A stretch of DNA of 64,000 nucleotides, from positions 682,001-746,000 of the forward strand of contig JAQYWK010000002.1 of the NCBI GenBank assembly GCA_030145055.1. The letters run 5' to 3'. The position numbers and the translations under genes are program-made. The first letter of the stretch is position 1; each line of letters opens with the position of its first letter. Of the stretch, positions 4,770-9,121 are shown piece by piece. Below the pieces are notes generated by a model, which saw only the letters and a program-made list of their open reading frames with translations, did not search any database and was not told the DNA's origin. The stretch comes from Desulfovibrio sp. GTDB taxonomy: Bacteria; Desulfobacterota; Desulfovibrionia; Desulfovibrionales; Desulfovibrionaceae.

Positions 4770-5696
4770 CTACTCTGGGCCAAATGTTGAACGAATGCCG
4801 TCCAGTTCCTTGGCTACTTCAAAAATAGTTCTAGAGTACACCATCGAATGATTATAGCGATAGATGACTTTAAGCTTCTTATCTTTACTCAGTGACTCTT
4901 TCCAGCCGTGCTTTTTCAAAAAATTAGCCATACTATCCAAAGCATCATCAGTGCTGAATAAGTCGATCCGCCCATCGGCGTTTCCGTCCACAGCATAACT
5001 CATTGCGGTGGTCGGCATGAATTGACATATTCCAAAGGCACCATATGGTGACCCGGGTATTTCTGTCGGTTTAATAGAATTAGCTTTGGAAAATTTTAAA
5101 AGGGCAACCATTTCTTTGTAAGCCCAGTCGGCCTTCTGCTTTGTTCTCTTTTTAAGCCACTTAAGATCTTCGTCCTTTAAATCACTATGTCCAAGATCGT
5201 CAAAAAAAGTCATAGGGTCTGTGCTTGCCGCCATATTCGCCAGATTCAAGAAAGCCGGAGCCTTGCCAAGCGTGCGACCGAGTTTTGTTTCAACAAGAAG
5301 AAGTGACACTAAAATAGAAGGTGACACACCGTATTTTTTATCAATTGCAAGTAAGATGTCAAAATTTTCGCGAAGATAAGAGTAAGCACCAGCAAGAGGA
5401 ATAACCCCGACATACCTTTCATCAAATTCTTTTTCACGTGCTACTTTTTTAGCTGATGGCTCAAATTTGCGATGGAGTAGGACTCGCATTTTTCTAGACA
5501 TTATACCAGAATCATATTTCATTGATTCAGCAGAAAAGACCTGAGTTACGTACTCTAAGGTAAACCCGTCTTTGACGAGCCTGTCCTTCAAAGGATTCCA
5601 TTCCACAGAATTTGCGGCGCATAACACCTCGCTACAAATAATAAATGAAAAACACAGAACAGAAAGTACCGTTAGTCTTTTAAGCTTAAAAATCAT
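4770..5696 (-). CDS. MltB-type lytic murein transglycosylase
   Basis: The 308-residue protein has an N-terminal signal peptide (hydrophobic stretch about residues 8-24, Ala-rich cleavage zone near 26-27) and an SLT_2 (MltB) domain. The general acid is the Glu of LLLVETKLGR, and the family's SPYGAFGICQFMPTTAMSYA and DGNADGRIDLF segments are intact. It should cleave peptidoglycan in the periplasm with 1,6-anhydromuramyl product formation. No lipobox Cys is placed for lipidation, so it looks soluble. The ATG has GAGGGG immediately upstream, inside the 9 bp that separate it from the small dual-CXXC gene on the same strand. Confidence 0.85.
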   Translation of the reverse strand: MIFKLKRLTVLSVLCFSFIICSEVLCAANSVEWNPLKDRLVKDGFTLEYVTQVFSAESMKYDSGIMSRKMRVLLHRKFEPSAKKVAREKEFDERYVGVIPLAGAYSYLRENFDILLAIDKKYGVSPSILVSLLLVETKLGRTLGKAPAFLNLANMAASTDPMTFFDDLGHSDLKDEDLKWLKKRTKQKADWAYKEMVALLKFSKANSIKPTEIPGSPYGAFGICQFMPTTAMSYAVDGNADGRIDLFSTDDALDSMANFLKKHGWKESLSKDKKLKVIYRYNHSMVYSRTIFEVAKELDGIRSTFGPE

Positions 5697-5705
5697 AACC
5701 CCTCA

Positions 5706-5936
5706 TTATAGTCGATTCATAGAAACGTTGGACATTTCTTCTTCGAAGTCATCATCAATAAACTCCGCATAATCGGCAACTCTGTATATTTTACTGCAAG
5801 ACCCGCAGCGTAAATAAACGCCAGCTCAACCCCTGCGCGAGAAAATTTCTCCGCCACACTCTTTGCAAAACATGCCCGGCTTAGGATCTTTATAGTCCCG
5901 TCCCTTGCTAGCGTTAAACCTTTTATTTCCAAACAT
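5706..5936 (-). CDS. Candidate dual-CXXC small selenoprotein (in-frame TGA read as Sec)
   Basis: Read from the ATG at 5936 (GGAG four bases upstream), the frame gives 76 residues if the TGA at 5826-5828 is decoded. CXXC pairs sit at residues 24-27 (CKEC) and 44-47 (CGSC), and the TGA is residue 37 in RRG-U-AGVYLRC. Sequence after the TGA stays protein-like (IYRVADYAEFIDDDFEEEM) and ends at TAA 9 bp before the transglycosylase start. A hairpin with a GGTCT loop begins 12 nt after the TGA. From memory, Desulfovibrio homologues have Cys at this position, and such proteins are annotated as dual-CXXC small (seleno)proteins. Reading the TGA as a stop would leave a 36-residue stub. Function unknown, probably redox or metal binding. 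Confidence 0.7.
5790..5814 (-). promoter_or_regulatory. Candidate bacterial SECIS hairpin
   Basis: On the reverse strand TTTA-CG-CTGC pairs with GCAG-TAAA around a 7-nt loop GGGTCTT, with a two-base bulge on the 5' side. The loop GT lies 24-25 nt after the TGA codon. E. coli fdhF has a similar GGUCU apical loop roughly 20 nt after its UGA, so spacing and loop fit SelB recognition. Confidence 0.6.
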
Positions 5937-5992
5937 AATTCTCCCATAATCAAATTACTCACGAATATAAATCAATTACCCCAGCCCCACAA

Positions 5993-6027
5993 TAAAAAAA
6001 GCCGGATTCCTTGGAGGAAGCCGGCTT
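5993..6027 (-). terminator. Rho-independent terminator of the TolC-family gene
   Basis: AAGCCGG-A-TTCCT pairs with AGGAA-G-CCGGCTT around a TGG loop. On the reverse strand the hairpin is followed by a run of seven T. It sits directly after the stop of the outer-membrane efflux gene. Confidence 0.85.
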
Positions 6028-6048
6028 AATAATAATCGAGAGTTTCTA

Positions 6049-7476
6049 CTAACTGGTTTTAAGCGAGGGGTTTTTAGTACCCATAGCAACGAACAATCTT
6101 GCGAGAGCAACCTGATAATCAGACAATGCCTGAATTAGCTGAGCTTCACTGGCACTCAATCTGGACTGAGCATTCAAAACTTCGTTGTTTGTGCTGACCT
6201 GTGCTTGATAACGAGCCATAGCCATTCTGTAACCTTCACGTCCAGCTTCAACAGATTTACGACCAACGCCGATTCTGTCGGCTGCTGCCTGAAGATTTAG
6301 AAGTTCATTCTTGATTTCGTAAGAAGCTTCAAGTCTGGTATTGTCGTACTCAGCTTGAATTTTGCCAACGTTCTCGTTAGCTCTCTTCACATCGTAATAT
6401 GTTTCGCCCCAGTTGAAGAAATCCCAATTTACATTGGCTCCAACACTCCAGTTATCTGGACGATCTTTGTGATTATATTTATTTTTACTTACAGAAGGAT
6501 CATCACCAGTGCTAGAGTAGTCGAAGTCTGCGGTAAGTTTAGGATAAAAAGAACTTTCCGAGATTGTAACATCTTCTTCTGATATTTTAATCGCCTTCTG
6601 CGCAATACGCAGGTCCGGACGATCTTTGTCCGCTTTGATAATACACTGATCGAGAGTCATTGAAAAAGGTAAGTAAGTAAGTTCACCTGAATAGTTAACA
6701 TTTTCTTCAAGCGGAAGATTTAGCAAGGTATTAAGTCTTGCAACTTTTGAAGCCACTACGTTCTGAGCTTTAAGCAGATCCTGCTGAGAAGTAGCAAGTT
6801 CAACTTCTGCCTGCAAGACATCAACTTTAGGTCTAAGTCCTACCTGATAAAAAGCCTGAATAACTCCAAGCTGAGATTCCAATCTGGCAACTGAATCCTG
6901 CTTACTTTTCACTTCCATACGTCCCTGAAGCAAAGTAAGAAAGGCGGTCTGAACTTCTCTTATCAAAATTAATTCGGCATTATAGAGACTTGCGTCACTC
7001 TGTTCTCTTTGAAGCTTAGTCTTCTGGAATTTAGATAGTAACTCAAAACCCATGAAAACTGGCTGACTGACATTGATGCCAAGTCCCCACTGATCTTGAT
7101 ACCCAGAAGCTGTGTTTCTGATTCTAGGCTGTTCGCCGTTATGAGTGTAACCATATTTTAAATTCATTCCAGCACCAAACTGACCGCGCTGCGATTCTAC
7201 ACTGCTTGTAGAAGCCATTAGTTGTTGACGGGCTGCAATGATTGTCGGGTTTTGTTGAATACCCAAATTAACGCATTCTTCCAGAGTAAGTGTTCTATCT
7301 GCAGACTTTTCCTCTTCGGAAACAGCTTGCGGAACCTGTGTTGTTGCCGCTTCCATAGAAACAGGAGCCTGCGCTTCACCTATTTTTTCTTCACCTGGTA
7401 ACTGCTGCGCAAAAACTTGCGACGCGGCAACTAGTATAAATATTAATGTAAATAAAAGAGAAATATTGCGTTTCAT
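6049..7476 (-). CDS. TolC-family outer membrane efflux protein
   Basis: The chosen ATG at 7476 has AGGA 8 nt upstream and gives 475 residues. A longer frame from a TTG at 7494 has no ribosome site. A signal peptide (KRNISLLFTLIFILVAASQVFA) is followed by two halves of the OEP repeat, each starting with a motif such as LTLEECVNLGIQQNPTI and FSMTLDQCIIKADKDRPDL, and by long coiled-coil helices. TolC-type proteins form trimeric outer-membrane channels with a periplasmic helical barrel for drug efflux or type I secretion. No membrane-fusion protein or pump is adjacent, so the partner is unknown. Confidence 0.9.
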   Translation of the reverse strand: MKRNISLLFTLIFILVAASQVFAQQLPGEEKIGEAQAPVSMEAATTQVPQAVSEEEKSADRTLTLEECVNLGIQQNPTIIAARQQLMASTSSVESQRGQFGAGMNLKYGYTHNGEQPRIRNTASGYQDQWGLGINVSQPVFMGFELLSKFQKTKLQREQSDASLYNAELILIREVQTAFLTLLQGRMEVKSKQDSVARLESQLGVIQAFYQVGLRPKVDVLQAEVELATSQQDLLKAQNVVASKVARLNTLLNLPLEENVNYSGELTYLPFSMTLDQCIIKADKDRPDLRIAQKAIKISEEDVTISESSFYPKLTADFDYSSTGDDPSVSKNKYNHKDRPDNWSVGANVNWDFFNWGETYYDVKRANENVGKIQAEYDNTRLEASYEIKNELLNLQAAADRIGVGRKSVEAGREGYRMAMARYQAQVSTNNEVLNAQSRLSASEAQLIQALSDYQVALARLFVAMGTKNPSLKTS

Positions 7477-7580: not shown

Positions 7581-8366
7581 TTAAACACCCCGTGTTTTTG
7601 CGCAGTCTGACAAGTCTCCCTGCAGCTTTTCAACAGCATGTTTTAAAGCTGGAAGTATAGCTTCCAAACTCTCCTTTACAGCTTTAGGACTACCGGGAAC
7701 ATTGACAATAATACTCTCACCAAGAGTTCCGGCAACTCCCCTTGAAATCATGGAGTGAGGTGTTTTTTCAAGCCCGGCTGTGGTTATAGCCCGCTCAAAA
7801 CCAGGTAAACGCTTTTCAATGACTGCCAAAGTTGCTTCGGGCGAAACGTCCCGAGGCCCGACTCCTGTCCCTCCAGTGGTGATAATAATGTCAAATTTAC
7901 TGGTATAGGCGAGATTCATAAGTAGGGACTTTAAGTCGCCGTATTCATCTGGAATTAAAAATCCGTGCACAATCGAGACAGCCATGGTGTCGCTTACAAT
8001 CTGGGCAATAAGCGGACCGCCCGTATCTTTTCTTTCTCCACGTGCGCCTTTATCACTTAGTGTGACATAAGCTACGGAAAAACCGGATCTCTCAGTTTTT
8101 AAGTCTAAGCTTCCAGAGTTCGGTAAAGGTTCTAGAACTTCTGCAACCCATGTTTTTGCGCCGGGCACCTGATCAGCCCATGAGCCTGATACAATTCGCA
8201 TAAGATCGGTCCCTTCGCTGCAAAGCTTCATTCCGGCTCTAAGCTTCGAAGCTTCTAATGATACTTTTATATATGGACATCCCTCTGGAAAAACATCTGC
8301 ACCACCAAGATATATCCTGCCCCCCACACGAACTGATCCTGAGGAAGAAAAATCACATTTTATCAT
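7581..8366 (-). CDS. mogA: MogA/MoaB-type molybdopterin adenylyltransferase with N-terminal extension
   Basis: Residues from about 95 onward form a MoCF-biosynthesis domain: VAYVTLSDKGARGERKDTGG, DIIITTGGTGVGPRDVSPEAT and NVPGSPKAVKESLEAI are the family's substrate-binding motifs. The enzyme adenylates molybdopterin before molybdenum insertion. About 90 extra residues precede the domain and are not recognised; they may be a small beta domain. GGAG lies 8 nt before the ATG. With the MoaE homologue this shows molybdenum (or tungsten) cofactor synthesis, as expected in an organism with formate dehydrogenases. Confidence 0.85.
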   Translation of the reverse strand: MIKCDFSSSGSVRVGGRIYLGGADVFPEGCPYIKVSLEASKLRAGMKLCSEGTDLMRIVSGSWADQVPGAKTWVAEVLEPLPNSGSLDLKTERSGFSVAYVTLSDKGARGERKDTGGPLIAQIVSDTMAVSIVHGFLIPDEYGDLKSLLMNLAYTSKFDIIITTGGTGVGPRDVSPEATLAVIEKRLPGFERAITTAGLEKTPHSMISRGVAGTLGESIIVNVPGSPKAVKESLEAILPALKHAVEKLQGDLSDCAKTRGV

Positions 8367-8416
8367 AACTATAACTCCGTAAATCTACTATTTATTAGGC
8401 CGACAGCAATACTATT

Positions 8417-9121
8417 TTAGGCCAACAAGACGGCTAAAATTCCGGTTATAAAAATACCGTCAAAAGTACCTGCTCCACCAATAGAAACAACTGGAGCATC
8501 GAGCACTTTTCGAGTTGCAGGAGTAGCCAAATGTAAAATATCAGCCCCAATCAAAGTCCCAAGACTACCTGCAACATATGCGGCAATGGGAGCGATTTCG
8601 CCCGGAACAAAAATCAATGCTGCAAGAGCGGTGATAATTGGAGGAATAAGAACAGGAATACCAATCCCTACTCCTGAAATTGGCTTAGCAAGAGCGTAAG
8701 TAGCCGCAGTCACTATAATGATACAAAGTAAAATAGAAAAATTATAACCATATTTGGCAAGAAGCGTTATTGATAACAAAGTTGGAATCACACATCCGCC
8801 AATATTTACTGCTACGATCTGATTAACAAGAGACTTCCCTTCATGCTGATTATCCATGTGCGGTTGCGGGTTTAAAACCCTGAACGTTCTGACAAGAACA
8901 TTAGGAACTAACCTTTCAGAACGAAACACGGGGATATTAACTCCACTTCCAAATAAGGTTGCAATTAGCAGAGCAAACCCTTGCCCCGAAGTAAGTCCCA
9001 ACTTGGCAAATGCAGTCGTAATTAGTCCAACCTGTACAAATATAAACAAAAAGAATATGACCACGAAAAAAATAACACCTAAAAGCATTACGGTAGGCAA
9101 CGAAAATAAGGGGCCGCGCAT
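8417..9121 (-). CDS. DUF1614 family membrane protein
   Basis: The 234-residue protein has about six hydrophobic segments with a charged loop (RSERLVPNVLVRTFRVLNPQPH) after the second. Glycine-rich stretches such as PISGVGIGIPVLIPP and AAYVAGSLGTLIGADILHL fit the DUF1614 family of inner-membrane proteins, whose role is unknown. It is followed 50 bp later by mogA on the same strand, so the two may be co-transcribed. Confidence 0.75.
   Translation of the reverse strand: MRGPLFSLPTVMLLGVIFFVVIFFLFIFVQVGLITTAFAKLGLTSGQGFALLIATLFGSGVNIPVFRSERLVPNVLVRTFRVLNPQPHMDNQHEGKSLVNQIVAVNIGGCVIPTLLSITLLAKYGYNFSILLCIIIVTAATYALAKPISGVGIGIPVLIPPIITALAALIFVPGEIAPIAAYVAGSLGTLIGADILHLATPATRKVLDAPVVSIGGAGTFDGIFITGILAVLLA

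Follow-up and report, generated by a model that had tools for sequence, protein, structure and literature searches.

A predicted member of the dual-CXXC (seleno)protein family NF041197 in Desulfovibrio sp., with a SECIS-like hairpin overlapping its second CXXC pair

Does the TGA that interrupts a short, cysteine-containing reading frame of Desulfovibrio sp. end translation, or does it encode selenocysteine (Sec)? The frame lies on the minus strand of the window, the whole stretch of 64,000 nucleotides that was analysed. It starts with ATG and, translated from 5936 to 5706, ends with TAA after residue 76. A first-pass annotation, made from the sequence alone, had described an in-frame TGA in an otherwise continuous frame with a CXXC motif on either side, ending 9 bp before the start of a transglycosylase gene. 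Translation confirms all of this: the TGA is codon 37, and 9 nt separate the TAA from the transglycosylase ATG at 5696. The key residues of the readthrough protein are C24, C27, U37, C44 and C47. In an alignment of 21 TGA-containing homologues, all five Cys/Sec columns are invariant. The features of the locus are as follows.

5706..5936, minus strand: predicted gene for the dual-CXXC selenoprotein; 76 codons, one of them a TGA read through, followed by TAA (translation; NF041197)
5826..5828, minus strand: TGA codon 37, predicted Sec (104 loci compared: TGA in 57, Cys in 47)
5856..5867, minus strand: first CXXC, residues 24–27 (translation; neither Cys varies among 21 TGA homologues)
5796..5807, minus strand: second CXXC, residues 44–47, within the SECIS-like hairpin (translation; no variation at either Cys in the same 21 homologues)
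5793..5809, minus strand: SECIS-like hairpin of 6 bp, loop GGTCT at 5799–5803 (fold; register kept in 56 of 57 TGA loci; covariation)
5941..5945, minus strand: GGGAG, likely ribosome-binding site 4 nt 5' of the ATG (by eye)
4770..5696, minus strand: lytic transglycosylase (SLT_2), the downstream neighbour (PF13406, 163.3 bits; synteny)

The gene and its family

The readthrough protein matches the NCBIfam model NF041197.2 with 71.9 bits (cut-off 40), over positions 1–53 of the 53 in the profile. The model is named CxxC_Se_CxxC, 'dual CXXC motif small (seleno)protein', and is now part of the NCBI annotation library. It has matches in 257 of 297 genomes sampled from the order, 251 of them above the cut-off. 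Homologues are present in 43 of 58 genomes, the genome of the window included, and their in-frame stops are exclusively TGA among the matches listed.

In the accessible text of a 2026 review (PMC13188914), 'Dual CXXC motif small protein (hypothetical protein OS_HP3), NF041197' appears as a predicted selenoprotein, with reference to Zhang and Gladyshev 2007; a separate entry reads 'Hypothetical protein DW, NF041197'. OS_HP3 carries the accession SMF39960.1 in the available portion of PMC9312934, and the same accession is assigned to DW in the accessible text of PMC13188914. Since both names are given one accession in these portions of different papers, OS_HP3 and DW may be one family. For DW, the available part of PMC12013277 describes Sec- and Cys-containing homologues as well as SECIS-like structures; the accessible text of PMC1914089 does not name the dual-CXXC family.

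The unifying point is a Sec/Cys column between two CXXC pairs, which the window protein shares with the NF041197 family and from which it shows no difference in kind. The window gene adds one more member to a predicted selenoprotein family that is already on record. The novelty implied by the first-pass annotation therefore falls away, the family being already catalogued (NF041197; PMC13188914, in its accessible text).

The Sec/Cys column and the neighbouring transglycosylase gene

Across 104 homologous loci, the Sec column holds TGA in 57 and Cys in 47, a ratio that is no measure of prevalence, because the TGA loci were fetched on account of a TGA flagged by the searches and the Cys loci are the top-ranked rows plus eight picked by hand. 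The Cys-containing homologues of the first-pass annotation are thus borne out by the alignment. The pattern behind the 104 loci demanded U or C at the column; looser patterns, read by eye, also gave only Cys or TGA, and Trp in none of the homologues read. Homologues with Trp or another residue at this site, named beforehand as evidence against Sec, were thus not encountered among those read. Five further loci on genome contigs (L033–L037), all with Cys, were left out of the 104. One genome (G066) contributes two of the 57 TGA loci, as it harbours two TGA-bearing copies of the gene (L124 and L136).

Within the genus, 14 of 17 genomes (the window's own included) have TGA and three have Cys (G001, G010 and G013). 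The G010 locus (L011) has TGC at the Sec column, and its GGTCT hairpin is still in register; this looks like a leftover SECIS element, as expected of a recent Sec-to-Cys change. In a protein tree of the neighbouring transglycosylase from 21 loci (17 of the genus and four others), the Cys label needs four changes, at least three of which are forced by well-supported branches. The label shows no clustering beyond that of shuffled labels (166 of 500 as low), and the tree does not set the direction of change. With Sec and Cys members mixed in one genus, G010 among them, close relatives would allow the cost and gain of Sec to be compared.

The first-pass annotation had further proposed that readthrough would couple the selenoprotein gene to the transglycosylase gene. 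Extended to a rival reading, Sec would be inserted at the TGA, but the UGA would serve mainly as a selenium-dependent switch on translation of the adjacent transglycosylase. The 9-nt gap speaks for such a link, as does the gene order, since the transglycosylase lies downstream in all 17 genomes of the genus. This simple picture does not extend to the wider family. A transglycosylase match within 1200 nt downstream occurs at 29 of the 57 TGA loci against 10 of the 47 Cys loci, where some fetched stretches are short downstream (955 nt in G109), as are at least two of the 28 TGA loci without a match. In two of the 29 (G024 and G156), the transglycosylase starts more than 750 nt away. Moreover, possible starts close after the stop codon were seen by eye behind Sec and Cys members alike, which makes the arrangement independent of the UGA. 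Coupling between UGA and transglycosylase was accordingly rejected as a general feature: it is local at best, and the neighbouring gene is not part of the Sec mechanism. A UGA that acts mainly as a switch is very unlikely.

The SECIS-like hairpin and the Sec machinery

The bacterial SECIS element of E. coli fdhF has a GGUC-type apical loop on a short stem, with the loop about 18 nt after the UGA. The window hairpin resembles it in having such a loop, a short stem and a place close behind the UGA; its stem has 6 bp, and its 5-nt loop, GGTCT, begins later, 22 nt past the TGA. According to the bSECIS model in the accessible text of PMC13188914, the loop has 3–9 nt, the upper stem 4–16 bp, G stands in the first two loop positions, and the distance from the UGA is 16–37 nt. 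Judged by hand, the window hairpin (6 bp, GGTCT, 22 nt) fits these figures, and the earlier description of a GGTCT apical loop at bacterial SECIS spacing is upheld against the quoted range.

Taken by itself, the window offers some room for a second rival, in which the TGA is an ordinary stop and the frame is either the remnant of a decayed gene or a pair of short, unrelated frames with CXXC by chance. In all six frames, the window contains 111 frames that are bridged by a TGA and open for 30 codons or more on each side, and two of these, this one and one other, have CXXC on both sides; the dual-CXXC motif alone is therefore weak evidence. The hairpin alone is modest and unremarkable against shuffled sequences, with z = +0.20 for the stretch of 53 nt from the TGA onwards and z = −1.58 for its 30-nt core (15 of 200 shuffles fold as well). 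It is the comparison with relatives that lifts the case above chance.

In a gap-free alignment, the TGA loci share a common helix of up to eight pairs (six in the window) around a 5-nt loop that begins 22 nt after the TGA. A hairpin was counted as in register when the minimum-energy fold places an apical hairpin there, with G within the first two positions of its loop. Among the 57 TGA loci, 56 have it, where synonymous recoding with local codon usage predicts 12.7; among the 47 Cys loci, seven have it, and the same recoding predicts 6.1. The register-specific criterion was chosen after the folds had been seen, and kinship among the sequences, which are not independent, inflates these counts. 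Folding energy relative to synonymous recoding separates the two sets only in part (mean z −1.27 for TGA loci, −0.58 for Cys loci). The loop pattern xGGTCx is shared by 34 of the 57 loci with TGA, compared with two of the 47 with Cys.

Covariation points the same way. For 53 distinct TGA rows, the score is 0.219, a value reached by none of 500 shuffles, with 89.9% of helix cells paired; for 45 distinct Cys rows, it is 0.184, reached by 392 of 500 shuffles, with 62.5% paired. Four pairs in the TGA set have both partners changed, a number also reached in 28 of 500 shuffles, and for the number of pair types 21 of 500 shuffles are as high. The two outermost pairs of the helix fail in 25 and 17 of the 53 distinct TGA rows. 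The hairpin is thus kept beyond what the coding sequence needs. Together with a protein similarity that crosses the TGA in many genomes, and with in-frame stops that are only TGA among the matches listed and that, wherever loci were read, always coincide with the Cys column, this makes an ordinary stop highly improbable.

Reading of the TGA as Sec requires the corresponding machinery, and its absence had been named in advance as a finding against Sec; all of its parts are present. The genome of the window (G000, 3,897,077 bases) contains selA (607.6 bits) and selB (374.7 bits), both in frames free of in-frame stops, as well as selD (329.6 bits), with one in-frame TGA of its own. One tRNA-Sec scores above the gathering score (80.1 bits) and has the anticodon TCA. 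The TGA in selD (L071, TGA at 1528) lies in the context AGUAAK and is followed by a stable predicted hairpin; SelD of this genome is probably itself a selenoprotein. A selA match occurs in 17 of 17 genomes of the genus. Among the matches listed, comprising 149 of 252 matching genomes, selA is no more associated with TGA than with its absence (54 of 56 TGA genomes, 87 of 93 others; Fisher p 0.71), a test that says little because 87 of the 93 genomes without TGA also have selA. The two TGA genomes without a selA match are 53% and 63% complete.

A TGA read as Trp or another ordinary residue, or a sequencing error, has a negligible chance of being right, as no point in its favour was found and it is opposed by a column devoid of Trp in every homologue read, by TGA at that position in 57 loci, and by a genome with tRNA-Sec and with uninterrupted selA and selB frames.

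Sec coding with a SECIS element is strongly supported by the family match, the machinery, the Sec/Cys column, the hairpin register and the covariation, all of them drawn from sequence. It is very likely that TGA 37 encodes Sec and that the gene belongs to the NF041197 family. The candidate dual-CXXC selenoprotein of the first-pass annotation is therefore well supported in this comparative sense; comparison together with an RNA-level control favours a Sec gene in a family of no known function. As to mechanism, we infer that SelB with Sec-tRNA(UCA) would recognise the hairpin with its GGTCT loop, 22 nt past the UGA, and that Sec would enter as residue 37 of the 76-residue, two-CXXC protein. If selenium were lacking, the chain would end at residue 36.

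The second CXXC pair and a possible function

The hairpin and the codons of the second CXXC pair occupy the same stretch of RNA, and the family is a clear case of a SECIS element overlapping a probable metal-binding motif. At the codon eight positions after the Sec codon (U+8), the third base is G in all 57 TGA loci and in 27 of the 47 Cys loci. When this codon specifies Arg, it is AGG in 26 of 26 cases; in the long open stretches of these loci, AGG accounts for 8.7% of the codons for Arg. Hairpin and codon pattern together can be read as a sign of selection on the RNA, and the overlap as a limit on the middle residues and codons of the second pair. The residue itself is Arg in 26 TGA members, Gly in 13, Lys in 10, Thr in seven and Met in one, and Pro in none of the 57; among Cys members, it is Pro in 31 of 47, a difference that may partly reflect ancestry because many Cys rows come from one genus (g32).

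Zinc-ribbon proteins offer a comparison for the product. The likeness consists of two CXXC knuckles, weak profile matches, and a predicted pair of strands between the knuckles. RPB9, LysW, HypA and Zn_ribbon profiles match the family alignment weakly, and zinc-ribbon profiles match the window protein below their curated cut-offs. The last point is also a difference, as is the additional fifth Cys/Sec column; to our knowledge, such a column is not a feature of zinc ribbons. An AlphaFold model built with six sequences is weak (pLDDT 61.0). It has strands at residues 30–36 and 39–44 that flank residue 37, followed by short helices at 53–56 and 62–69. A Foldseek search with this model returned nothing at E 0.001 or better (best E 0.22), and the best hit of a profile search against solved structures had E 0.055. 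No signal sequence was seen by eye. Tentatively, the product may be a small zinc-ribbon-like redox protein, in which the CXXC pairs would bind a metal and the redox-active residue would be Sec37, placed at the turn between the predicted strands; this assignment is possible, though less likely than not. A bolder scheme is improbable as a whole: the need for Sec would fix the middle residues of the second knuckle and their codons, with Cys members less constrained, a switch from Sec to Cys would free the metal site of the RNA constraint, and in the genus, the choice between stop and Sec might tune translation of the adjacent transglycosylase according to selenium supply.

As regards the surrounding DNA, a promoter and terminator scan of 5690–6100 found nothing, and an Rfam scan of 5500–6200 gave two matches, each under its gathering score. 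At about 5994–6027 on the minus strand, between a TolC-like gene and the selenoprotein gene, an inverted repeat is followed by a run of T; it is terminator-like by eye and absent from the scan output. Elsewhere on the minus strand of the window (7581–9121), a gene for a DUF1614 protein (8417–9121) adjoins a gene with a MoCF_biosynth domain (7581–8366).
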